From Diphasiastrum complanatum (Eukaryota; Streptophyta; Lycopodiopsida; Lycopodiales; Lycopodiaceae), in the NCBI GenBank assembly GCA_029204225.1, contig CM055097.1, positions 29,065,192 to 29,129,191 of the forward strand: a DNA stretch of 64,000 nucleotides, read 5' to 3'. Both the position numbers and the translations under genes were made by a program. Below, in pieces: positions 6,843 to 25,309 of this stretch. How positions within the stretch are numbered: the first letter of the stretch is position 1; each line of letters opens with the position of its first letter. The notes beneath the pieces were generated by a model, which did not search any database, had not been told where the DNA came from, and was given only the letters and a program-made list of their open reading frames with translations.

Positions 6843-7838
<996 letters not shown>

Positions 7839-8411
7839 CTCCCCCCCTCCTCTCTCTAGAAATTAAACTATCTCTCTCTCTCTTTAAAATATTCAATACA
7901 TTATCTATTACGTTTCTATCTTTACATTATTATATTTGCATTATCTTTACTATGCTAACAAACTTTATCTCTCAAAAAAAAAAAATCAAAACACAAACAA
8001 CTACCTCCAAAAGCTCCAAGCACCAAAAGCTCCAACAGCCCCAAGCACCACCAAACACCATGCTCCAAATGCGCCAAACACTCGAGATCTGCACGAGAAA
8101 GAGTGAAGAAATCTGTGGATCGCACAAAATCTCAAAATTCAAACAAACGTTGGATTTTCATGTCCCAAAACACATCGAAATCTAACGTCCATGTTAGTAC
8201 CATGTGTAATCAAAAACTCGGATGTCCACGTCGGATGCCAACTAATTTTTTTTTGATAGAAAATTTTTCACGTCAGGTTGTTGGATGCCAACATGTTGAA
8301 TCCGACGACAAGTTTGAAAATTGGTTGGCACCACAGTTTCCTGATCATCAGACGTCCAAAATGACAACTTTTACTTGGACATTGGAATCCGATGTGTCGA
8401 AGTGCGACGAA
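7839..8411. other. Low-complexity A/C-rich flank, no gene
   Basis: Next to the CT array is a stretch of short imperfect repeats around CTCCAAGCACCAAAAGCTCC, then AT-rich DNA. Two overlapping short ORFs have no recognisable domain. Confidence 0.45.
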
Positions 8412-10058: not shown

Positions 10059-10684
10059 TGTGAAAGATTCAACTAGTTTGATCATATTTGCTACATTTCT
10101 ATATTTGGAAAATTGAGGCCAATTTTATATTAGACTTAGAGTCTGACTTCAAAGCTCATTAGTCTAAATTTCATTTGAATAAACACTTTTTGAAAGTGTG
10201 GGAAAGTTAGAAGTCGAGTTTGAGTGGACTCAAATTTAAATGTTTGATACATTGAATCTAGACCCAAAAATAGTAGGGTTTACATTTTGGAGGGAAAGCC
10301 AAGTGGCCAAATAGGGTTTGGACCTACTATAAAAGGATGTAACTCATGGAGAGACATATCTTCTCTCTGCTCTATCTCGTTTCATGCTTATACATGGTTC
10401 CACTATCCATTGGTGCACTATACTTGTGATTGCTTGTAATTATATGTGTAGAATGATCTATATTTGTTATTTTTGTGTGAAATACAGTAACTTTCTGGTT
10501 TTGTATGGACAACAACAGTACTTTATTGTTTGTTTCATGTTTGATCAAGTTCTATTAGAGTTTGCATCTCATTCATAGAGTAGATGCTGATTTTTCTACA
10601 TTGGTAAGATTATTGATTTGTTCTCTTTCTAAACCCAAAATCAGTTGTTGGATTTGATTCATCATTGATCTAAAATTTTTCACA
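10059..10684 (+). repeat. 5' LTR of the inner Copia
   Basis: It matches 15295-15914 from ACATTTCTATATTT onward. It carries a TATA-like CTACTATAAAAGG (about 10330) followed by a pyrimidine-rich stretch, and ends TTTTTCACA directly before the primer-binding site. Confidence 0.85.
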
Positions 10685-10696
10685 TGGTATCAGAAC
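10685..10696 (+). other. Primer-binding site (initiator Met-tRNA type)
   Basis: TGGTATCAGAAC directly abuts the 5' LTR. The Copia consensus is TGGTATCAGAGC, complementary to the 3' end of plant initiator Met-tRNA. Confidence 0.85.
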
Positions 10697-11304
10697 TTGT
10701 GTTTCAGGTTATGAAGGAGAAATCATATCTATGAATAATTTGGTGAAGATATCAAGGCTAGAGCATGCTAGAGAGGATTTTACACCAAAATTGAGTTTCT
10801 TGCATTTTTAGATTAGATTTTTTGTAGATCAAAACTCTATATAGGTTTATAAACTTGATCAATTCCAATTTTTGAATTCACATACTGTATTTGGCCGATT
10901 TTTGGATCATTGGATTAGCCTAAGTGGTGGCTAATAGATTGCATATCAGAATTTCAGCATTTGCATGTAGTTTTGAAATAATCAATTTTTTGTGATTTTG
11001 CCAAAACTCTAATTTTGATTGGATCTCTAGATAGTGAGGTTTCTGGACTTCATTTGAGTGTGTTTCAATCTTAGGAATTGGCAAGTGTCATTAGATTGAG
11101 GATAGATCATAGGTTGATCAAGATTTCATGATTCTATGTGTTGATTTGCTTGGTATAAGTGCTAGAAGAGAATTTTTGAGTAGTTTCAAATCTTTGTGAT
11201 TTCTTTTGAAAACATTTATTTTTGTTCAAAGGAGTGCTTTGTGCATTGAAACAGATTGAAAGAGAAAATCAAGTAATTGCTATAGGGCAACATCAAGTGG
11301 AGTT

Positions 11305-12262
11305 ATGTTGGAAGCCAATGATAGGCTTACCTCAAGTAACTATTCATTGTGGAAGGTGAGGATGGAATCACTTCTTGAGATGAATGCATTTGACATTTTT
11401 TGCCACTTTGAAATTTTATCAATCCATTGTGGTTTTTTCGACCCCTATACTTGCTCAACCCTTTGCAATTTTTTCAATTCTCCATGTTTTGGATATTGTT
11501 GTAGGTTTGGAGGAGAGACCAACAAGACAACAAGATCAAATGAGGTATGATAAGAGGGCCAAAGGGCTCTACACACATGATCAAGATGAATATTGATACC
11601 AATAAGCTTCTCAAGGAAGGTGGTAAGTGTACTTCATCAAGTGAGGCTTGGGATTCATTGAAGAAGCTTTATGAATCCAAGTCTACTTCTAGAGTGTTGA
11701 CTCTAAGAAGAAGAAAATTTTCTTGTTTGCAAAAGAATGAAGAAAGTCCAAATACTTTTTTTTTGAGGATGAAAGCTTGAATGATGAGTTGGCTTGCATT
11801 GATGAGAGCATTAAGGAAGGAGAGCTTGTTCAAGTTATTCTTAATGGATTGTTGGATGCTCATGCTAACATTGTTCAAAGTATTGCTATTCAAAAGACTT
11901 TGCCATGTTTGATGGATCTTCAAGATATCTTGATCAATGAAGAATATATACTTCAAGCAAGAGGTGGATCTACATCAACACTTCAAGAGGAGGCTATGTT
12001 CACAAAGGGCAAATTCAAGGGCAAAAGCAAAAGGAAGTGGTCTAAAGGACAAGATCAAATGGATGCTTCTTCAAGTTGGAAAAAGAAGGATAGATCAAAT
12101 GGCATCAAAGGACACTTTGCAAGTGAGTGCTACAAGAAGAAGAGAGATCAAGGAGACAAGCAAGGTAATCTTACTCTTGATGAGGATGGTTTGGATGTTC
12201 AAGATGCAAATGATGATGCTTTTGTGATGTCTTCATGTATGTTGCTTTTGATGGAGGTCTAG
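11305..12262 (+). mobile_element. Copia gag region
   Basis: Gag coding blocks of the inner element. An N-terminal motif (RLTSSNYSLWKVRMESLL) is typical of the Copia gag family. A lysine-rich tail with a zinc-knuckle-like end (GHFASECYKKK) follows. It is a fossil copy. Confidence 0.8.
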
Positions 12263-12297
12263 ATCCTTGGTGGATTGATAGTTGAGCAATTTCACAC

Positions 12298-15249
12298 ATG
12301 ACTTTTCATAAAGAGTACTTCACTTCTTTGTTGGCATATGGAGATGACAAGAGGGTGATCTACACGACCAATGATGGTGAGTGTGCAATCAAAGGGATTG
12401 CCACAATTCCTATTTCTCTCTCTACAAATAGGAATGTTCATTTGGAGGATGTCTTGTTTATTCCATCTATTACCAATAATTTGCTTAGTGTGAGTCAAAT
12501 GCTAAGTAAAGGCCTCAAGGTTGAGTTTGATGGAGACACTTGTATGATCAAAAGGAAGGACATCTTGATTGGAAAAGGTAAAAGACAAGGGAAGTTGTTC
12601 AAACTAGATGCTTGTGTTATTGCTAACCAAGTTGGATGTGTTGCAATTCAAGAGGTTTGGCATAAAAGGATGGGACACCTCAACTTCAAGTCATTGGAGG
12701 TAATGGATAGAAAGAAGGTTCTGATAGGTCTTCCAAGTTTCTTAACTCGCATCAACCATGTTTGTGAGTCTTGTGCTTTGTCTAAGCCACATAGACTACC
12801 TTATACTAGATCTACATCTAGATCTACAAAGCCTTTTCAACTTTTACATTCAGATATTCATGAATTCGCTACAATTAGCAATAGTGGAGTTAATATGTAT
12901 GTAACTATCATTGATGATTTTAGTAGATTTTGCTGGATATATCTACTAAAGAGAAAAGATGAAGTGTATGATGTCTTTGTTAAGTTCAAGAATGCAAGGG
13001 AGAACCAATTTTTCACAAGGATCAAGTGCTTAAGTAGTGACAATGGTGGTGAGTACATATCTACCAAGTTCAAGGCCTTTTGTGTTGAGCATAGGATCAA
13101 GAGGGAGTATACAACATCAAGGACCCCACCACAAAATGGAGTGGCTAAAAGGAAGAATAAGATTTTATGTGAAAGTGCTAAAGCCATGAGGCTAAGTGCT
13201 AATCTTGATAAACCATTTTGGGATCAAGCTTTGTTGTGTGCCAATTTCTTGTGCAATAGGTGGCCGAGTGCTATTTTGAATGGAAGGACACCTTTTGAGA
13301 TGCTATTCAAGAGGAGGTCGACTGTCAACTTTCTAATTATAACTTCTGGATGCACATGCTATGTCAAATTTACTCTTGATGATAGGACCAAGGAGGATCC
13401 ATATTCAAGGAGAGGTATTTTTGTTGGATATAGCGAGGTGAGTAAAGCCTACAAGGTTTACATTCATGTTGCTAACAAAGTATATGTCATTTTTGATGAG
13501 GGGAATATTCCAAAAGTGTCTTCAAGTACTATTGATGGTGATGTGGATGGATCTAACATACTTGATGTTGATGTAAAAGATCCTACTTTAGATGATGATG
13601 ATGATGGACCTTCATCAAGTCAAAGGCCCAGGAGAACATCAAGGGAAAGACAAGTATCTTCAAGACTCACATATGATGAAAAGGATAAGCAAGTAGTTTC
13701 TGGAAATGATGTTGTTTTCCTGACCTCTTTTGATGAACCTACAAGTGTAGGTGAAGCAAGGAAAGAAGAGGAGTGGATCCAAGCAATGGATCTTGAGTAT
13801 CAAGCTCTTATGAAGAATGGAACATGGAGATTGGTGGAGTTACCTAAGGACAAGAAAGCTATTGGATGCAAATGGATCTTCAAGGTGAAGACAAACAAAG
13901 ATGGATCTATCAAGAAGTACAAGACAAGGTTAGTGGCAAAAGAATATGCTCAAGAACAAAGGATTGACTATGATGAGACCTTTGCACCCATGGCAAATAT
14001 GGTAAGCATTCGAGTCATCATCTCACTTGCTACACTTTATGGATGGGATCTATGGAAAATGGATATTACAAATGCATTCTTGAATGGTGATCTTGAGGAG
14101 GCTAAAAGCATGGTTTGGTGGTACAACATGTACTTTCAAGGACACTACCTTTTTTGGGTAGAAATGCACTTTTGTATTATTATACACTATTTTCAATTGA
14201 TAGATTTGAATTGCAATAACTTTTTAACCATACATTGAAAGTATGTCATCTAACATATCATTGGAAAGCGCTTGTCAAGCGCTTTCTAATGCACTAAACT
14301 CCGCTAAATTGGACTTACCAGTAAAGCGTTATGTCATTTTTAATGTGGACTCAAAAAATTATGATTAATAAAATCCCCATACTTTTGACTTGCCATAACT
14401 TTTTAACCGTAGCTTAGAAGTATGTCATCTAATTATCTTTGGAAAGCGCTCATCAAGCACTTCCTAAAGCACCAAAGTTTGCTAAAATTGGACTTACCAC
14501 TAAAAAGTTATGTCATTTTTAATGTGACTCAAAACAATTATGAGTAATAAAATCCCCAAAAAGTGAAATGTACTACCAAAAGGTACAATGAAAAATGGGT
14601 TCTTTTTTTGTAGCACCGAACCATGCTTTAGCCAGGAGGAAGTGTACATGGAGCAACCCGAGAGCTACATTTCTACTACAAAGCCAAATCATATGTGTCT
14701 ACTTCAAAAGAGTTTGTATGGCCTTGAGCAAGCACCAAGGATGCTAAGCTTAACACTTTTTTACTCTCTCAAGGCTTTGCTATGAGTGAGTATTATTGGT
14801 TTGCTAGAAATGATGGTATCATCTTGCTAATCTATGTGGATGATATCATCTTGAGTGGTGGAGACAATCAAGATGTGGAGGATATCAAGAGTGCTCTTAA
14901 GGAGTTTGAGGTGCATGATCTTGGTAACTTGCATTACATTTTGGGAATAGAAGTCATTAGATCTTCTCAATCTACTTTAATTTGTCAAGAGAAGTATGCT
15001 AATTCTATTCTAGAAAGATTTCACATGGTAGATGCAAAAGCTAGTGATACACCTATGGAGTCTCTTGTAAAGCTAACTATAAGAGGTAGTGAAAGATCCT
15101 TCAAGGACATTACTCTTTATAGAAAGCTAGTTGGTTCACTCATCTATCTAACCATTAATAGACCTGATCTAAGCTATTGTATTGGAAGATTGAGTCAATT
15201 CAAGCAAAATCCTAGTGAGGAGCATTGGAAGCTAGGAATCGAGTTTTGA
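12298..15249 (+). mobile_element. Copia pol: integrase and reverse transcriptase
   Basis: Blocks in Copia order: protease-adjacent HLEDVLFIPSITNNLLSVSQ, GAG-pre-integrase (VWHKRMGHLNFKSLE), integrase core (LLHSDIH and LSSDNGGEY), then Copia reverse transcriptase (KWIFKVKTNKDGSIKKYKTR and, after the inserted MITE, the YVDD box in LLIYVDDIIL). The coding region is broken, with a few breaks besides the MITE. Confidence 0.9.
14100..14633. mobile_element. MITE with internal direct duplication, inside Copia RT
   Basis: This 534-bp insertion has terminal inverted repeats of about 24 bp, GGCTAAA(A)GCATGGTT at the left and its complement at the right, differing by one indel and a few substitutions. 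It is flanked by AGGA on both sides (AGGAG if the left boundary moves one base). Inside are two direct copies of a roughly 180-bp unit, each with CATAACTTTTTAACC-like, GGAAAGCGCT and TTATGTCATTTTTAATGTG segments and each ending AATAAAATCCCC. It has no coding capacity. A 4- or 5-bp duplication does not point clearly to one DNA transposon superfamily. Confidence 0.85.
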
Positions 15250-15294
15250 GGTACATCATTGGTACTCAAGATTTTGGCATATTGTATGAATGTC

Positions 15295-15914
15295 GAAGAA
15301 AACATTTCTATATTTATAAAATTGAGGCCAATTTTATATTAGACTTAGAGTTTGACTTTTCAAAGTTTATTAGTCTAAATTTCATTTGAATAAACACTTT
15401 TTGAAAGTTTGGAAAAGTTAGAAGTCGAGTTTGAGTAGATTCAAATTTAAATGTTGGGTACATTGAATCTAGACCCAAAATAGTAGGGTTTACATTTTGG
15501 AGAAAAATCCAAGTGGCCAAAGAGGGATTGGAACTGCTACAAAAGGATGTAACTCGTGGGGAGACATATCTTCTCTCTTATCTATCTTATTTCATGCTTA
15601 TACATGGTTCTCTTGGGTTCTACTATCCGTTGGTGTACTATACTTGTGATTGCTTACAATTCTATGTGTAGAATGATCTATATTTGCTATTTTTGGATCC
15701 ACACGTGTGAATTACAGTAGTTTGTTGGTTTTGTATGGACATCAACAATACTTTATGATTTGGTTCATGTTTGATCAAGTTCTATTAGAGTTTGCATCTC
15801 ATTCATAGAGTAAATGTTGATTTTTCTACATTGGTAGGATTGTTGATTTGGTCTCTTTCTAAACCCAAGATCAGTTTATGGATTTGGATTATCATTGATC
15901 TAAAATCTTTCACA
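15295..15914 (+). repeat. 3' LTR of the inner Copia
   Basis: It aligns with the 5' LTR through TATTAGACTTAGAGTTTGAC, the CTACAAAAGGATGTAAC promoter region and the end CTTTCACA. It carries a perfect CACACGTGTG palindrome (15700-15709) that the 5' LTR lacks at that place. Confidence 0.85.
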
Positions 15915-16539: not shown

Positions 16540-19500
16540 TTCCAATCACATGCAAACCAAAAGGACACCTGTGGAGCATGAACCACCCAACCGATATGGA
16601 GAGGCTAGTCAATACCCTAAGCAATCCACCCCCAAGCCACAATGAAAAACACAAGAGAGGAGAGGAAAAACTGGCTCAAGAATCACAATTCACAATAGGA
16701 GGATGGGCGAGTTTCTACTAGACTTATTCTCGTCAAGAGAGAGAAAATATTCTCTTTAGGATTCTCATGCAACTTAAATTGAGCTATTGACCTCCTATTC
16801 TTGCATTAAAGTAGTCTTCACCATGCTTGTGCTCCTATGTCCAATTATAGGTCTGGGCCCTCATATGATTATTAATTATTTAATACGATCACTTCTGGAA
16901 TGACGTAACATAACTAATAACCACATACAACTGGAGTGACCGGCTATCCATGTCAGGAACTATTCCGATTCCCTTGTACAGGACATGGACATAACATTCT
17001 TCCCCCCTTAAACCATTTCTATCTCTAGAAATGAAAACTAGAGAAATTCTTCTTTATGCAGTCGACCCGTTCTGAGTACCTTTTCAGGTTCCAAAGGAAC
17101 ACTAAGCGATGAGTCCTCCAAATAGGTAAGATCTTCCTCTGAACCCACTACTTCACCTTCATGTAAACTTAATTTTAATCGGCTTACATGAAACACAGGG
17201 TGAGGTGTAGTCTTGTTCTGAAGATCTAGTTCGTAAGCTAAAGAACCAATTTTCTTTATAATCCAACATGGTCCACAATATCTCATAGACAATTTATAAT
17301 GCTTCCATGTACTCATAGTTTTAGAATCCTTAGGTATTCTAAAATATACCCAGTCATCAACTTTAAAATCTCTGGGAGACCTCTTAAGATCAGCATAATG
17401 CTTAGCTCTATCCTGAGCACTCCAGATACAATCACGGGCCACTTGCAACATTTCATGCATATCATGCAAAAAATCTACAACTTTCTGGATCTTAACAGAC
17501 TTTGTCTCCACATTTATCGAATATCTAGATTGAAAACCGTACATCGGCATAAACAGACTATAACCAGTGGCAGAATGTTTCCTACTGTTATAAGCAAACT
17601 CAATCAAAGGAATGTAGTCTTCTCACTGAGATTGTCTGTGAGACACATATGTTCTCAACATATCCTCCATAGTTTGATTAGTTCTCTCAGTCTGGCCATC
17701 TGATTCAGGATGATCAGAAGAACTAAAACTAAGCGAGGTTTCAAGCTTATGGAATATAGCTGACCAAAAGTGACCTGTAAATTTAGGATCTCTATCACTA
17801 ACTATATCACTTGGTAGTCCATAAAGCCTAAATAATCTTTCCACAAAGATCTAGGCTAAATCCGAAGCCTTAACAGTTGACTTGACTGGTATAAAAGTAG
17901 CTAACTTTGTCAACCTGTCCACCATAACCTGGTATAGAAGTAGCTAACTTTGTCAACCTGTCCACCGCAACCCAAATAGAATTATTTTGGCATTGGGTCT
18001 TTGGAAGTCCAACCACAAAATCCATAGATATACTTTCCCATCGCTTCTGAGAAATATGTAGGGGATGTAACAACCCTCCAGTCTTTGAGCGTTTTGCTTT
18101 GGCTAATTGCCAAGGTCTAGACTTAATCACATAAGACTTGACAAATGGCTTGAGTTTCGGCCAACAAAACTCTCTTCTGACCAAGTCCAAAGTCTTGTGT
18201 ATACGCGAATGACCTGCACAGGGAACGTCATGACACTCACAAAGAATCTTCTTCTTTAACTCATCATCTGCTGGTACACAAATTTTTCCATTTCAAAATA
18301 GTAACCCACCTCGGATAGAGAACTGTTCTGCTATCTTCTTATTTTTCCTAGGAACTTGAGACCCCTGTGAGTAAATCTCTATTCCATTCTCATTTTTTCC
18401 TATCTCACCATCTTCCAGATGGGACCAAAATGAGAATCTGATTCACATTTTTCTCTCAGTGAAAGATATCGATCAATGGAAATCTGGGTGAATGAAAGTT
18501 CATTTAATTCACCAATCCGACTAAGTGCATCCGCGACTTGGTTAGAGCTGCCCTTGACATATTGGATCTCATGATCAAATTCCTGCATAAGCTCAGCCCA
18601 GCGAGCCTTACGACCCCTTAGATCATTCTGATTACAAAAGTACTTCAGAGGTTGATGATCTGTATACACTATAAACTAACTACCATAAAGGTAATGCCTC
18701 CAGGTTGTAAGTGCATGAATCACAACAAATAACTCTTTCTCTTGAGTTGTATAACGCAACTGAGGCCTCGTGAGTTTCTTGATTTCAAACGCTATTGGCC
18801 TATCATCCTGTAGAAGAACTGCCCCTATCGCTGAATCACTTGCGTCAGTTCGCACAATGTAAGGTAAATCAGGATTTGCGATCTATAAAACAGGAGCTGA
18901 AGCACCATTTGCTTGAGTTTCTCAAAACATTGGTTCAATTCATCATTCCACTTTATAGGCTCACTAGGTTAACCTCTTTTTTTTTTTGTTAACTCTGCCT
19001 TTAGTCAAATTATTTAAAGGTGCCGCATAATCTTCAATTGACTTACGAAAGAAAACTGTAAAACCGAAAAAAGATTTAACTTCTCTAACCGTCTTTGGTA
19101 TCGGCCATTCAAGCACTGTCTTGACCTTACTCTCGTCAATCTCCAACCCACTATGGGTGATCTTATGATTGAGGTACAACAACTCATGCTTAAAGAACTC
19201 ACATTTAGATTCCTTAGCATAGAGTTTCTCTCGTATGAGAATATCTAAGACAATCTTAAGATGACTCAAATGCTCCTTAAGTGTCATGCTGGAGATAAGA
19301 ATATCATCTAAGAATACAACCACAAACTTCCCTAGATATGGACGAAAAAGATCGTTCATCATCTGTTGATCATTGCGTACATCAGTGAGCCGATGATGGA
19401 TTGAAACGCGTAGTGCTTCATTTCCTCCTTTTCTATCTCTGTTTGAGGAGATTTTTCCTTTGATAGTTTTAGTCCAAGGTCGAGTGGAAAGAGATCGGGT

Positions 19501-20084: not shown

Positions 20085-20089
20085 ATTTC

Positions 20090-20900
20090 TTTGGAAAAAG
20101 TACAAAAAGGACCAAGAGTGGATCCTAATCTGATCCTCAAAAGGGATTGGTTGTCAGATTACTTGATCTATCAATCTACTTCAGATTAAGATCAATCTAG
20201 ATCAATTCTAGACACAAAATCCTAACAAGAACAATCATTAATTGAAGGTAAGTGTATTTTATGATTTCACACGTGCGAAACACTGTCTGAGTACGAACTC
20301 CAACCTGAAAATCAAGTACACATTGATAGAACCTCAAAACAATCAAAACAAATGTAGACAAATGGAGAGAATCACTCAAAATTGCTTCCAAAACCAAGAT
20401 TGGTGTCTCACACTGATTATGGCCAAATGTGGCTCTATATATACAATAAGTGGGAGCTCATGGTACTAATCATCCCTTTGATCCCACATGTGTGAAGGTG
20501 CTTTGTCATATGATGATCCATCATGACCTTCTATTTTGAGCACTTTTGGTCCATTTTCCTTCTATATGGAGATCTACTTGAAAATCTTCTAGAAGTCAAA
20601 ATTCGTCTACTTCAGCTTATTCCACCCATGTGAGCTGTCCTCTACACATGGGATGTGACACCTAACCAAAGGATGTGGCTCATTCAAGCAATAGATTGAT
20701 GCCATGTGTCATATGTCTAGAAAACTAGTTTTTGGCCTTTTTAGCCACTAGAACTTGAATTAAATCATATGTACAACCTATATGATTATGGTACATGACA
20801 AGTACACTATTTTCACATGTGGTAACAGGCTCCACACATGTGTGTTTATCTATATACAAGATTTTTGGCCTCTACCAAGCTTAATTTTGCATTTTTCACA
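20090..20900 (-). repeat. 3' LTR of the pol-less element
   Basis: On the minus strand it starts TGTGAAAAATGCAAAAT and matches 24473-25304 almost throughout. It holds a TATA-like TGTATATATAG on the minus strand (about 20443) and several CACA(C/T)GTGTG-like palindromes. Confidence 0.9.
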
Positions 20901-20916
20901 CTCCTCCTCAAAAATC
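20901..20916 (-). other. Polypurine tract
   Basis: Minus-strand GATTTTTGAGGAGGAG abuts the 3' LTR start, as needed for plus-strand DNA priming in LTR elements. Confidence 0.8.
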
Positions 20917-21009
20917 TAGCTTGATGGAAAATATGATGATCTTGAACTTGACTCCATGGGCTGAATTGGTCTTTGCTGGTTCAAAAGGTGTGAAGATCAG
21001 AGAATGAGC

Positions 21010-22861
21010 TTGATGTTGATCTTAAATCACCATATCCATGATAGTGCTTCTTTGATGTTGACATCTTTGATGAACTTGAGAGCTTTGCACCATCCTAGCA
21101 TCTTCAAAATTGATTCCTTCCAAATTTCATGTAGATGCTTGACTTTGAGGCTTGCTCCTTCTTCATGTGCATGCTCCTTTATGAGAAAATAAAGATTTCT
21201 TCTTGATTTATTAGGATCACAAAGATCTAACATCATGTTACCATGATATAGAGAATTAGACTTATCCAAATTGGCAAGACTGTGCATGCTATAATAACAA
21301 AGTGTTTGCATCATATATTCATGCTTGTTTACCATGCTAATCTCAGATCCAATGAGGCTAAATACTTCATTATGGAGATTAGTGTCTTTAGAAGATGATT
21401 CACTTACTCTCATAATGAGTTTACAATTTGGCTCAATACAAATTATCAAACTATGAGTGAACAAATCACTTTTGCTCTTACATGACTCAAGAGCATACAT
21501 TTGATGAAATAACCATTTGCTTTCTAATTGATTTAAAATCAATTTCAACCTTTTAAGAACATCATCTATGTTCTCAAGAGAGACTTTATACTCAACTAAT
21601 ATGGCTTTACTCCAATTTGGAGATGCAATGATCTCACTAAAGCAAATTGATTTACAAATGACATAAGAGAAGTAAGTATGAGATGTATACCACATGAGAT
21701 ATGCTCCTCTTTTTCTTGAAATGTGAGCCACATGGAATCAACCATATTTCTTGAGTTTCTTTTTGGAATCACAACTTGAGAAGATCTCTCCTCCTCAATC
21801 CTTGGCACACTTGAACCTTGAGATGATTCTTTAAGATCCTCTTCATGGTGCTCCTTCTTGATGGAAATCTGAGACCTCCATGTCTCATAATGATCACAAC
21901 AACTATGACCACACAATATGCACTTCCTATGATTATCAAAATTACTTATGTTAGAAACATAAGTCCAAAAATCACCACAACTTGGCATGATTTTTCTAAT
22001 ATTGAAATCAAAAGGCATTTCCATCTCAATAAGGCTAACTACTTGCTTATGGATATAAGTGTCCACTTTGGATGCTTCACTTATTCTCATAAGAAGTTTA
22101 CAACTTGCCTTTAATATTGAAAACTTACAATTTTCATCTTTATGAATGAACACATCATTCATGATCTTATTGAAACTAAAAGAATTTACATTATGAAGAC
22201 ATTTCCATTTTCTTGACTTCATAACTAATGTAAGATTACAAGGAAAACATGCTTTGCTATACTTTAAGGCATCACACTCAACTAGTATTGCCTTAAGCCA
22301 CCTTTGAGATACAAAAATCCCTTCAAAGCAAAATAGATCTTCATAAGTTGACATGAGAGCATAAATAAAACTATTTTCATTTTGTGACTGATGCTCCTTA
22401 TTCTTGATTGATTTCTCTTGGATCATAACAATAAGTTTGAATTTATCTAAAGTTCCAAGCAAAATACTTTCCAAGGACATAAAATAAATCCAAGTTACTT
22501 TCATGAAAGTGACATCTATCTTTGCATCTTGAACCAAACAATGCACTTCCAAATGAAAAATTTCAAAAGATTTGACATGTGTTGTGATGGACTCTTGAAG
22601 ACAAATCTTGCAAGTCCTTATGAGACTCCAAGCCTCATTCACCTTTCCACAAAGGAAACACCTTTCCTTGGACTTGTCCTTCTTGTATTTGCATTTCGAA
22701 CTTGAAGCTCCATCCTTCTCCTTGGCCCCCTTACTTTGGTCCTTCTTGGATGGATTGGTCTTCTTTTTGTAGCATCATGAGAAAAAATATCCTTCCTTGC
22801 CACAAAGGTTGCACTTAGGATCCTTTCTTTCCTTCAATAGGATGCCACCTATTGATGCCAT
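21010..22861 (-). mobile_element. Zinc-knuckle coding region with duplicated domain
   Basis: The only coding region of the pol-less element. From an ATG at 22861 the N-terminus reads MASIGGILLKERKDPKCNLC, running into a gag-like CCHC knuckle (CNLCGKEGYFF). A lysine-rich linker and a second Cys pair (RCFLCGK) follow, then more cysteines (TCKICLQ). Downstream are two similar blocks. Block one (about 22370-21850) has SQRWLKAILVE and CKLLMRISEASKVDTYIHKQ. Block two (about 21650-21070) has SPNWSKAILVE and CKLIMRVSESSSKDTNLHNE. I recognise no known domain in the blocks. It is a fossil with a small number of breaks. A capsid-like or captured host origin are both open. Confidence 0.65.
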
Positions 22862-24460
22862 GTGAATAAAAACCTGTGATATGATTCTACAAATGTAATT
22901 TGTGACTTTCAAGAGACTATATTTGAACATCTTCAACAATCTAGAAGGATCTACAAAAGATCTAGCTCACAAACCTAAGAATCAATCTTCATAGTAATGA
23001 CTAGTCACTTGGAAACTTTGCTTTGGACTCATCAAATACCAATGATTCTTTCTTTTGAAAGTTAAAATGGATATGAAAAAGATTTGACACCTAGATTTTC
23101 CTTTTCACTTGACTAGTTCTCTCAACACTTGAGATTCTTGAACAAAAGATGGGTTTTGTTTCAAAGATGGGTTTTGTTTTAGGTCTTAATCACTTCTTTT
23201 GGACTCTCTCTTGACCCAAATAATCTCACTCTTGAGATTTAGAATGAATTTGATTTGATTTGACAACAAACTAAACCACCAATTTTTCACAAAGCTTAAA
23301 AAATTAGACAACTAGAGATTCACAAAGATCTCAACCATGCATGAATACTCAAATATGGACTCCTCCTCATTCTAGACATCCAATGGGATCTCAAATTGAC
23401 CCTCACACTCTCACAAAGAAAGTTGAATAGAACTAATTTGAGTTTCATACATACTATGTCAATTTTTGCTCAATAAATTGATTCAATCACCCCTATTGGA
23501 TTCCACCAATTACTCTACCTCTTAAGACTTGGAATGAAATTCAAATCAAAAGTGGTGATTTTTCTCAATAAGATATTGTGCTTCAAAGAGCTAATGCCAC
23601 TTAGAAAGATTTGATCACCTAGGAAGAGACAAACTCTCCACCAATAACAACACATAATGAGCTTCTAGATCTTGCCCTCTACAAAGGAAGGAACTCTTAG
23701 AAAATTGGATCTCTCTCTACACATTTGCCATAGACACTTTAATGACTCTTTTCAAACCTTAAAATCACTCAAACAAATTGAGTAGGGTTGAACAATGTGA
23801 CTTGGATCTTAATGTCTTTTCTAGAACTCTCAATTGAAGATAATCTATGTCAAACTCTACAAAAGATTTGCATAGATGCTCTATATGCACTAGAAACTCT
23901 CAAAGGTTTCACTTGGAGGACAAATCCAAAGATGTTTTCTAGCAAATTGATGCTTCTAAACTTGACCCTATCACTCTTGAACAAATATAGAGTGATGGTA
24001 CAATGGATTTCAACCTCTCACCTTGCATATCACTCCTTAATCTATGATTTTTAGCAAAATCTCTCTTAACTTCAACATACACTCAAAAAATCAAAGAAGA
24101 TCAATTGAAGCACCTATTTCAAGCTTCAATTTTAATTTTTTGGCTGATCTAATCCAATAACTAATCAAAGGATTAGATTTACTATAGAAAATGCCTGATT
24201 TTGCACCAAAAATCACTCAAATTGGGTATGTGAGTCAAATTCTACAATTTTTCTAAATTTCTCAGCCAAAATTGGAGCTGTACGACCTCACACGTGTGAA
24301 AAGGGTTCCTACAGCCCACAACAAGATCTGGACCAAAAATTTTGAGGATGGCTATCAAATCCAACTCGCTACACAAAATTTGACTAGTTTCCAAAAAACT
24401 GCTAATTTTGGCTTTGATTTGGATTAACCCTATCAATTTCAACAAAACCTCTTGTACTAG
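22862..24460 (-). other. Long leader of the pol-less element
   Basis: Between the primer site and the coding region lies 1.6 kb without a supported reading frame on the minus strand. The one plus-strand ORF here (23788-24054) has no domain. A perfect CACACGTGTG palindrome is at 24289-24298. Confidence 0.6.
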
Positions 24461-24472
24461 GCTCTGATACCA
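24461..24472 (-). other. Primer-binding site (initiator Met-tRNA type)
   Basis: The complement is TGGTATCAGAGC, an exact Copia-type primer site directly abutting the 5' LTR end. Confidence 0.9.
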
Positions 24473-25304
24473 TGTGAAAAAAGAACAAAAAGGACCAAGA
24501 GTGGATCCTAATCTGATCCTCAAGAGGGATTGGTTGTCAGATTACTTGATCTATCAATCTACTTCAGATTAAGATCAATCTAGATCAATTCTAGACACAA
24601 AATCCTAACAAGAACAATCATTAATTGACGGTAAGTGTACTTTATGATTTCACACGTGTGAAACACTGTCTGAGTATGGATTCCAACCTGAAAATCAAGT
24701 ACACATTGATAGAACCTCAAAACAATCAAAACAAATGTAGACAAATGGAGAGAATCACTCAAAATTGCTTCCAAAACCAAGATTGGTGTCTCACACTGAT
24801 TATGGCCAAATGTGGCTCTATATATACAATAAGTGGGAACTCATGGTACTGATCATCCCTTTGATCCCACATGTGTGAAGGTGCTTTGTCATATGATGAC
24901 TCATCATGCAAAACTGACACTTGGACAAAACCTTCTATTTTGAGCACTTTTGGTCCATTTTTCTTCTATATGGAGATTTACTTGAGAATCTTCTAGAAGT
25001 CAAAATTCGTCTACTTCAGCTTATTCCACACATGTGAGCTGTCCTCTACACATGGGATGTGACACCTAACCAAAGGATGTGGCTCATGCAAGCAATAGAT
25101 TGATGCCATGTGTCATATGTCTAGAAAACTAGTTTTTGGCCTTTTTAGCCACTAGAACTTGAATTAAATCATATGTACAACCTATATGATTATGGTACAT
25201 GACAAGTACACTATTTTCACACGTGGGAAGTGGCTCCACACATGTGTGTTTATCTATATACAAGATTTTTGGCCTCTGCCAAGCTTATTTTTGCATTTTT
25301 CACA
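24473..25304 (-). repeat. 5' LTR of the pol-less element
   Basis: An 832-bp LTR, TGTGAAAA...TTTTTTCACA on the minus strand. It includes the 16-bp palindrome TTTCACACGTGTGAAA at 24648-24663 and a TATA-like TGTATATATAG (about 24826). Compared with the left copy it has an extra 20-25 bp near 24908. Confidence 0.9.
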
Positions 25305-25309
25305 ATTTC

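Follow-up and report, generated by a model that had tools for sequence, protein, structure and literature searches.

The description of large retrotransposon derivatives (LARDs) reportedly goes back to Kalendar and colleagues in 2004. In the accounts drawn on here, LARDs and terminal-repeat retrotransposons in miniature (TRIMs) are described as elements without coding regions, and terminal-repeat retrotransposons with GAG domain (TR-GAGs; expanded in PMC5818461 and named in PMC6696364) as elements without pol (PMC6696364, PMC5818461). The subject of this work is a long terminal repeat (LTR) element that occupies positions 20090-25304, on the minus strand, of a 64,000-nucleotide stretch of the Diphasiastrum complanatum genome (assembly GCA_029204225.1, contig CM055097.1, positions 29,065,192 to 29,129,191), which is referred to as the window. 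The comparisons presented here make it very likely that this element belongs to a high-copy, non-autonomous LTR family of the Copia lineage that carries a relic gag-pol frame.

The family has the structure of a Copia LTR retrotransposon, with paired LTRs of the form TG...CA, a primer site of the tRNA-Met type, a polypurine tract and a 5-bp target-site duplication. Like LARDs, it is larger than 4 kb (5213-5356 bp in the ten elements with two LTRs, namely that of the window and nine fetched copies), uniform, abundant and non-autonomous, with no enzymes recognised; it differs from them, as they are described in outline, by its one long open frame, which spans 643-670 codons from stop to stop in 20 copies picked for openness, far above chance. 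Like TR-GAGs, it combines LTRs and an open reading frame (ORF) with the absence of pol enzymes and is presumably mobilised in trans, whereas it has no recognisable gag shell domain, its zinc knuckle is degenerate, and a diverged, pol-derived piece comprising the linker to the reverse transcriptase (RT) and the RT start lies within the frame. Given that a strict TR-GAG has gag and no pol, and a strict LARD has no coding region, neither label fits the family. A previous reading of the window, made from the sequence alone, had noted a resemblance to one or the other; the family falls between the LARD/TRIM and TR-GAG labels, and is ordinary in kind and a new variant in detail. TARE1 of tomato, as its report summarises it, is likewise a mutated Copia-like family with a recent amplification burst, but its LTRs are 194 bp long and start with TA, and its mutation lies in the LTR (PMC3701649). 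The LTR element Bs1 of maize also has an unusual hybrid ORF, which in the cited account consists of captured host gene segments, while the parts matched here are derived from Copia (PMC13317346). Cassandra, as outlined in its description, forms LTR-internal-LTR-internal arrays, of which the present genome holds one candidate, but is far smaller and has a 5S domain in its LTR (PMC7215508). No comparable family with a relic frame appeared in the titles and abstracts of the open-licence literature, a search that did not extend to plant protein and repeat databases, where an entry may exist.

It is clear that the cis signals for reverse transcription and integration have been kept, namely the LTRs with their TG start, the primer site, the polypurine tract and the 5-bp duplication, and that the same parts are common to dispersed copies. 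The sequence-only reading had listed the ATTTC duplication, the paired 0.8-kb LTRs, the primer site and the polypurine tract, and the coordinates bear these out and place the element on the minus strand. The two LTRs of the window element are 94.6% identical when gaps are included, and differ by 16 transitions and 8 transversions over 809 sites, which corresponds to a Kimura two-parameter distance (K2P) of 0.030 and agrees with the suggestion of a fairly recent move. At the grass rate of 1.3e-8 substitutions per site per year, which is not calibrated for the present genome, the insertion would date back about 1.2 million years. The 1.6-kb leader is also as had been described and looks non-coding, containing 14-20 ATGs and no open run of more than 101 codons in the nine of the 20 fetched copies that have it whole; that of the window is short of about 65 bp that most other copies reaching that point have. 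Just upstream of the ATG of the frame, the motif TATCACAG (window 22874-22881, minus strand) resembles a splice acceptor, and such a motif is found in eight of the nine copies with a whole leader. A spliced leader, predicted from sequence only, could explain how translation bypasses the 14-20 upstream ATGs.

Other copies were sought in the 1.74-Gb assembly that contains the window. The exact 20-base junction between the polypurine tract and the LTR occurs 709 times (349 + 360, against 0 for the reversed control), a count that says nothing on whether each place carries the interior of the window element. With half an LTR as query, 2154 first-look candidates were obtained, of which 40 were scored and found 90-100% identical; the first (392 residues) and last (236 residues) pieces of the open frame gave 24,953 candidates with 105 scored and 14,934 with 150 scored, respectively, these first-look numbers being loose and not copy counts. 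The 20 copies that were fetched had been chosen for a long open frame, and the sample is biased towards similarity and openness. All 20 contain the leader end, the ORF and LTR sequence, confirming that the interior recurs in the genome, a point on which the sequence-only reading had made its proposal depend. Nine of them have two full LTRs, several are cut at one end, and one (L032) has a small inversion at the tail/LTR start. Across the ten two-LTR elements, that of the window included, LTR distances are 0.0146-0.0397 (K2P), the primer site is perfect in eight, and the 5-bp duplication, judged by eye with the LTR ends taken as CACA, is exact in seven, one base different in one, offset in one and mismatching in one.

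Three observations concern the copies themselves. At G000:C8:41303755-41322733, the coding region occurs five times head-to-tail, with identical score and stops each time and at a spacing of exactly 4465 bp, about the length of one LTR plus one interior. Either this is a tandem array of LTR and interior or it stems from the assembly. Matches on the chromosomes are repeated at the same or nearly the same score on small contigs (for example C408 with C15 and C2984 with C22), which suggests duplicate haplotypes that were not purged and means that copy counts may be inflated. Beside one copy, the stretch L029:6880-7700 is 69% identical to the LTR of the window element and is accompanied by no other element parts in the fetched flank; it represents a sister LTR family and is possibly a solo LTR.

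The origin of the frame was studied by direct comparison with pieces of Copia elements from the same genome, scored against shuffled sequences. Residues are numbered according to copy L045; compared with L029, its frame has 14 additional residues, which lie in the linker. Near the start of the frame, residues 10-44 match the gag knuckle of a candidate helper family, presented below, with a score of 78 (0 of 1000 shuffles reached it, maximum 55) and that of another Copia with 77 (0 of 1000, maximum 50). For the CxxC stretch that follows, the match to the helper gag is weaker (64, 0 of 1000, maximum 54) and that to the other Copia gag marginal (50, 5 of 1000). The zinc-binding histidine is replaced by a tyrosine in the window copy and in all 19 scorable copies of the 20. 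The zinc knuckle named in the sequence-only reading stands as a homologue of the gag knuckle, but one that is degenerate and that a stop interrupts in the window copy. Further along, residues 374-466 match the helper pol with a score of 113 (0 of 1000, maximum 56) and the pol of the Copia element in the window with 77 (0 of 1000, maximum 53), and the match to the helper extends to the DNA, where 184 of 271 aligned bases are identical (score 87 against a maximum of 47 in 300 shuffles). The part of pol that is matched is the integrase/RT linker and the RT start, and the stretch overlaps the second of two internal repeats. The duplication is evident in the protein (score 179 against a maximum of 59 in 200 shuffles) and at the DNA level (66% identity over 344 positions). 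The start of repeat 1, its first ~45 residues (about 155-200), also matches the helper RT start, though more weakly (59, 0 of 1000, maximum 50), as does its DNA by a small margin (54 against a maximum of 51 in 300 shuffles). Residues ~74-142 may be a relic of the integrase start, given their score of 58 with that of the window Copia (0 of 1000, maximum 52).

The matched pieces are arranged as in Copia gag-pol, the greater part of which is missing, while the RT start is present twice; the pol order of integrase before RT is visible only as relics, the doubtful integrase start followed by the integrase/RT linker and RT start. These comparisons show that the frame, as far as its stretches can be matched, is a cut-down, duplicated and diverged gag-pol derivative. 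The earlier view that what follows the knuckle has no relation to retrotransposon proteins already known is not supported, and the alternative that the interior is an ordinary Copia gag or pol holds in part only, since the frame is neither and a part of it is a diverged derivative. Likewise, the claim that protease, integrase and RT are absent agrees with Pfam, which recognises none of them anywhere in the interior of the element, but does not extend to the strongly diverged linker and RT-start piece. Two further assignments were rejected: an RNase H origin of the C-terminus, plausible by eye, gave scores of 20-21 in comparison with the presumed RNase H piece of L027, values reached by 998-1000 of 1000 shuffles, and the later part of neither repeat could be matched to RT.

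Profile searches alone would have missed this relationship. With Pfam, five pieces of the window copy gave nothing above the curated cut-offs (best E 0.11), eight family members gave nothing either (best E 0.081, the gag domain in none of the eight), and the thirds of one member, searched up to E 10, gave nothing credible (best E 0.1); neither a gag shell domain nor protease, catalytic RT or RNase H is recognisable in the frame. As a control, Copia or Gypsy pol was recognised in five of ten other proteins of the window. The control is imperfect: the piece of L027, a Copia RNase H by eye, was missed at E 0.01, and for this reason the silence of Pfam on the frame is only partial evidence. A sequence search of the Protein Data Bank (PDB) returned one match that is not credible (E 0.28), viral and prokaryotic contigs yielded no relative, and an AlphaFold model made without an alignment was uninformative (mean predicted local distance difference test score, pLDDT, of 35). 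Part of the interior was matched by the direct comparison with Copia pieces of the same genome, and not by these searches. The lack of recognition by Pfam and PDB, and the ~160 C-terminal residues that have no explanation, are what would be expected if the coding region had been captured from the host, as in Bs1 of maize; the homology of knuckle and pol linker, in Copia order, speaks against such a capture and makes it very improbable.

A family that could supply the missing enzymes was found with the presumed RNase H of the Copia element next to copy L027 as query, which gave 109,829 first-look candidates, of which 150 were scored. Among these, 25 matches that are 78-80% identical to the query belong to an open frame that is 1322 or 1323 codons long, and this Copia family is apparently intact and recently active. 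One copy, read in four pieces (L049-L052), was taken as the candidate helper. In its gag piece Pfam recognises a Copia gag domain (6.2e-21), a zinc knuckle of canonical form (2.2e-5) and the beginning of Pol_BBD (2.4e-13), and between its RT-start piece and the pol of the window Copia there is 52% identity. The polypurine tract and LTR start of the helper, CAAGCTAGA..GAGGAGGAGTGT.AAAAAT, are nearly the same as in the window element: the junction scores 54, against a maximum of 28 both in 2000 shuffles and in up to 5000 random segments of the window, and against 17 for the window Copia and 23 for the Copia next to L027. The comparison of LTRs with those of autonomous Copia elements, which the sequence-only reading had put forward, revealed a distant likeness, the LTR of the window element and the helper LTR region, the end of which was guessed, scoring 69 against a shuffle maximum of 57 (200 shuffles), 44 for the reverse complement and 48 for the window Copia LTR. 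The 1322-codon family is the strongest candidate for the role of helper, since its polypurine tract and LTR start hardly differ from those of the window element and the two LTRs are distant relatives; it is a relative of the same lineage, and as a helper it is plausible but not proven. The view that the element is non-autonomous and moved with the enzymes of another is in this way made plausible. An autonomous Copia family, for which the 1322-codon family would be the best available candidate, would provide the proteins that package, reverse transcribe and integrate the RNA, and any protein made from the frame would have no enzymatic role. Another locus, L006, one of those picked by LTR similarity, was considered as helper and rejected: an LTR of the family and 110 bp of its leader are followed by what appears by eye to be a Gypsy-type pol, and it was taken as a truncation.

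Several results weigh against this picture of a Copia-derived family served by the 1322-codon helper. The helper is represented by one copy, found with a lucky query, in which the primer site was not reached, and other Copia families may be closer. Its leader piece has no significant match to the leader of the element (47 against a shuffle maximum of 53), and a common origin of the two is not supported. The whole frame of L029 is only marginally similar to the helper gag piece (score 71, the best of 300 shuffles reaching 68), and the resemblance of its beginning to a gag start (MASI) is not significant, with a score of 24 that is below the shuffle mean of 31.9. Repeat 1 has no significant match in the window Copia (38, 85 of 1000). 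The integrase-start match fails on a second Copia piece (24, 936 of 1000), and this failure counts, given that at least the beginning of the region lies within the second piece; a shifted version of the test gave only 37 (38 of 1000). The ~160 C-terminal residues (about 467-625) match nothing. Finally, eight loci, including the window, were picked by LTR similarity; among the other seven, three with the ORF within reach and one more with the leader speak for a shared interior, whereas two show the LTR only and one breaks off after 110 bp of leader.

The frame is far longer than expected by chance. From its ATG it encodes 611-635 residues in eight aligned copies, while the longest chance frame in 2000 first-order Markov sequences has 196 codons. 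The window copy is broken by a stop at 22775-22777 and by a frameshift near 21690-21740, and the idea that a single frameshifted lineage has been amplified was rejected because the window and several other copies leave the common open state of the linker separately; this state is found in 20 of the 32 rows tabulated, some of which give the same place twice. Both the length and this common state favour a functional protein whose sequence is under selection, for instance an accessory protein that binds RNA, or a Gag competitor, supplied in trans. Such a role is nonetheless unlikely, given that the zinc-binding histidine has been lost in all 19 scorable copies and that one cysteine of the third Cys-rich motif varies among them. 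Moreover, in the ten copies that have all parts, the two halves of the ORF (distances of 0.041 and 0.037) diverge about as fast as the LTR (0.042) and the second half of the leader (0.041), the first half of the leader being at 0.053.

Between the two repeats, ~34% of the aligned DNA positions differ, and both are open in one register. When neutral change to this divergence was simulated, repeats 1 and 2 acquired on average 10.9 and 10.4 stops and in 0 of 500 runs was either free of stops. This supports the possibility that the frame is selected as a frame and not for its sequence, whereby translation through ~1.8 kb of the RNA would help in cis, for instance through escape from nonsense-mediated decay or by steering the RNA to the site of helper Gag synthesis, and open masters would win while amino acids drift. 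The simulation, however, contained no indels, and its mutation spectrum, which is recent and heavy in decay, probably yields too many stops. The three codon positions are conserved to nearly the same degree between the repeats (identities of 0.54, 0.61, 0.55), as expected from such drift; against the helper, both repeats show, in four copies, an excess of position 2 over position 3 of 0.07-0.21, a coding bias that argues for a functional protein and that is only somewhat weaker than the 0.20-0.28 of three comparisons between Copia elements.

The ratio of nonsynonymous to synonymous change (dN/dS) depends on the sample. In the halves of the frame that had not been used for picking it is 0.651 (13 copies) and 0.644 (7 copies), where neutral means are 0.771 and 0.784 and 12 and 15 of 100 neutral simulations are at or below the observed value, so that these less biased samples fall within the neutral range and provide no clear synonymous excess. 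In the half used for picking it is 0.580 (2 of 100 simulations), and for all 20 copies it is 0.596 (0 of 100), which favours selection on the protein over mere translation in cis, although this sample was picked for similarity and openness. Changes shared by at least four copies have a synonymous to nonsynonymous ratio of 14:39, against 93:270 for changes found in a single copy (p 0.87), and those shared by at least two copies one of 40:83 (p 0.16), and this likeness is again compatible with drifting amino acids. Translation in cis as the cause of openness appears quite unlikely. The youth of the two-LTR copies and the near-neutral ratios of the less biased samples would also follow if a recently amplified master simply happened to carry an open frame under no selection; openness by such inertia is a tentative possibility, against which stands the long open history that the diverged repeats imply. 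It is concluded that the frame has probably been kept open for long, and that in the recent burst there is weak or no constraint on the amino acids. A single aspect of the family is surprising, and the data do not settle it: the frame remained open over ~34% divergence, while selection on its amino acids is difficult to detect.

Table 1. Parts of the LTR element and of its coding region, in window positions; residue numbers are those of copy L045.
Feature	Position	Strand	Remark
Target-site duplication ATTTC	20085-20089 and 25305-25309	none	read directly; the two sides match
5' LTR, 832 bp, TGTGAAAAATG...TTTTTTCACA	24473-25304	minus	TATA-like stretch aligns with candidate helper LTR
3' LTR, 811 bp	20090-20900	minus	outer end no longer CA
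Primer binding site TGGTATCAGAGCC, 13 nt, tRNA-Met type	24460-24472	minus	
Polypurine tract GAGGAGGAG	20901-20909	minus	
Leader, ~1.6 kb, apparently non-coding	22862-24459	minus	
Coding region, homologue of the family's 611-635-residue frame	21030-22861	minus	one stop and one frameshift
Short tail from stop codon to polypurine tract	20910-21026	minus	CAAGCTAGA near tail end, recurring in candidate helper
Repeat 1 of internal duplication	21836-22396 (approximate limits)	minus	
Repeat 2 of internal duplication	21159-21710 (approximate limits)	minus	
Degenerate gag zinc knuckle (CCYC), CX2CX4-Tyr-X4C	22772-22813	minus	interrupted by stop in window copy
Relic of integrase/RT linker and RT start	21507-21785 (approximate limits)	minus	residues 374-466
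Doubtful relic of integrase start	22436-22642	minus	residues ~74-142

The remainder of the window contains other repeats. The Copia element used above for comparison lies at 10093-15914 and is decayed, with 0.6-kb LTRs that are 87% alike and recognisable integrase and RT domains. Fragments of a Gypsy-type integrase are found at 17041-18292 on the minus strand, and CT-rich simple repeats with repeated segments at 6847-7883.

The family has the appearance of an intermediate stage, placed between autonomous Copia elements and LARDs free of coding sequence, in which the enzymes are gone, a fused relic of gag-pol persists as a frame and the copies are abundant. It also calls for caution, given that profile searches alone can present a diverged derivative of pol as an unknown protein. 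If the frame is indeed kept open with little selection on its amino acids, the family would allow the question of whether a retrotransposon parasite benefits from the mere translation of its RNA to be tested in nature.

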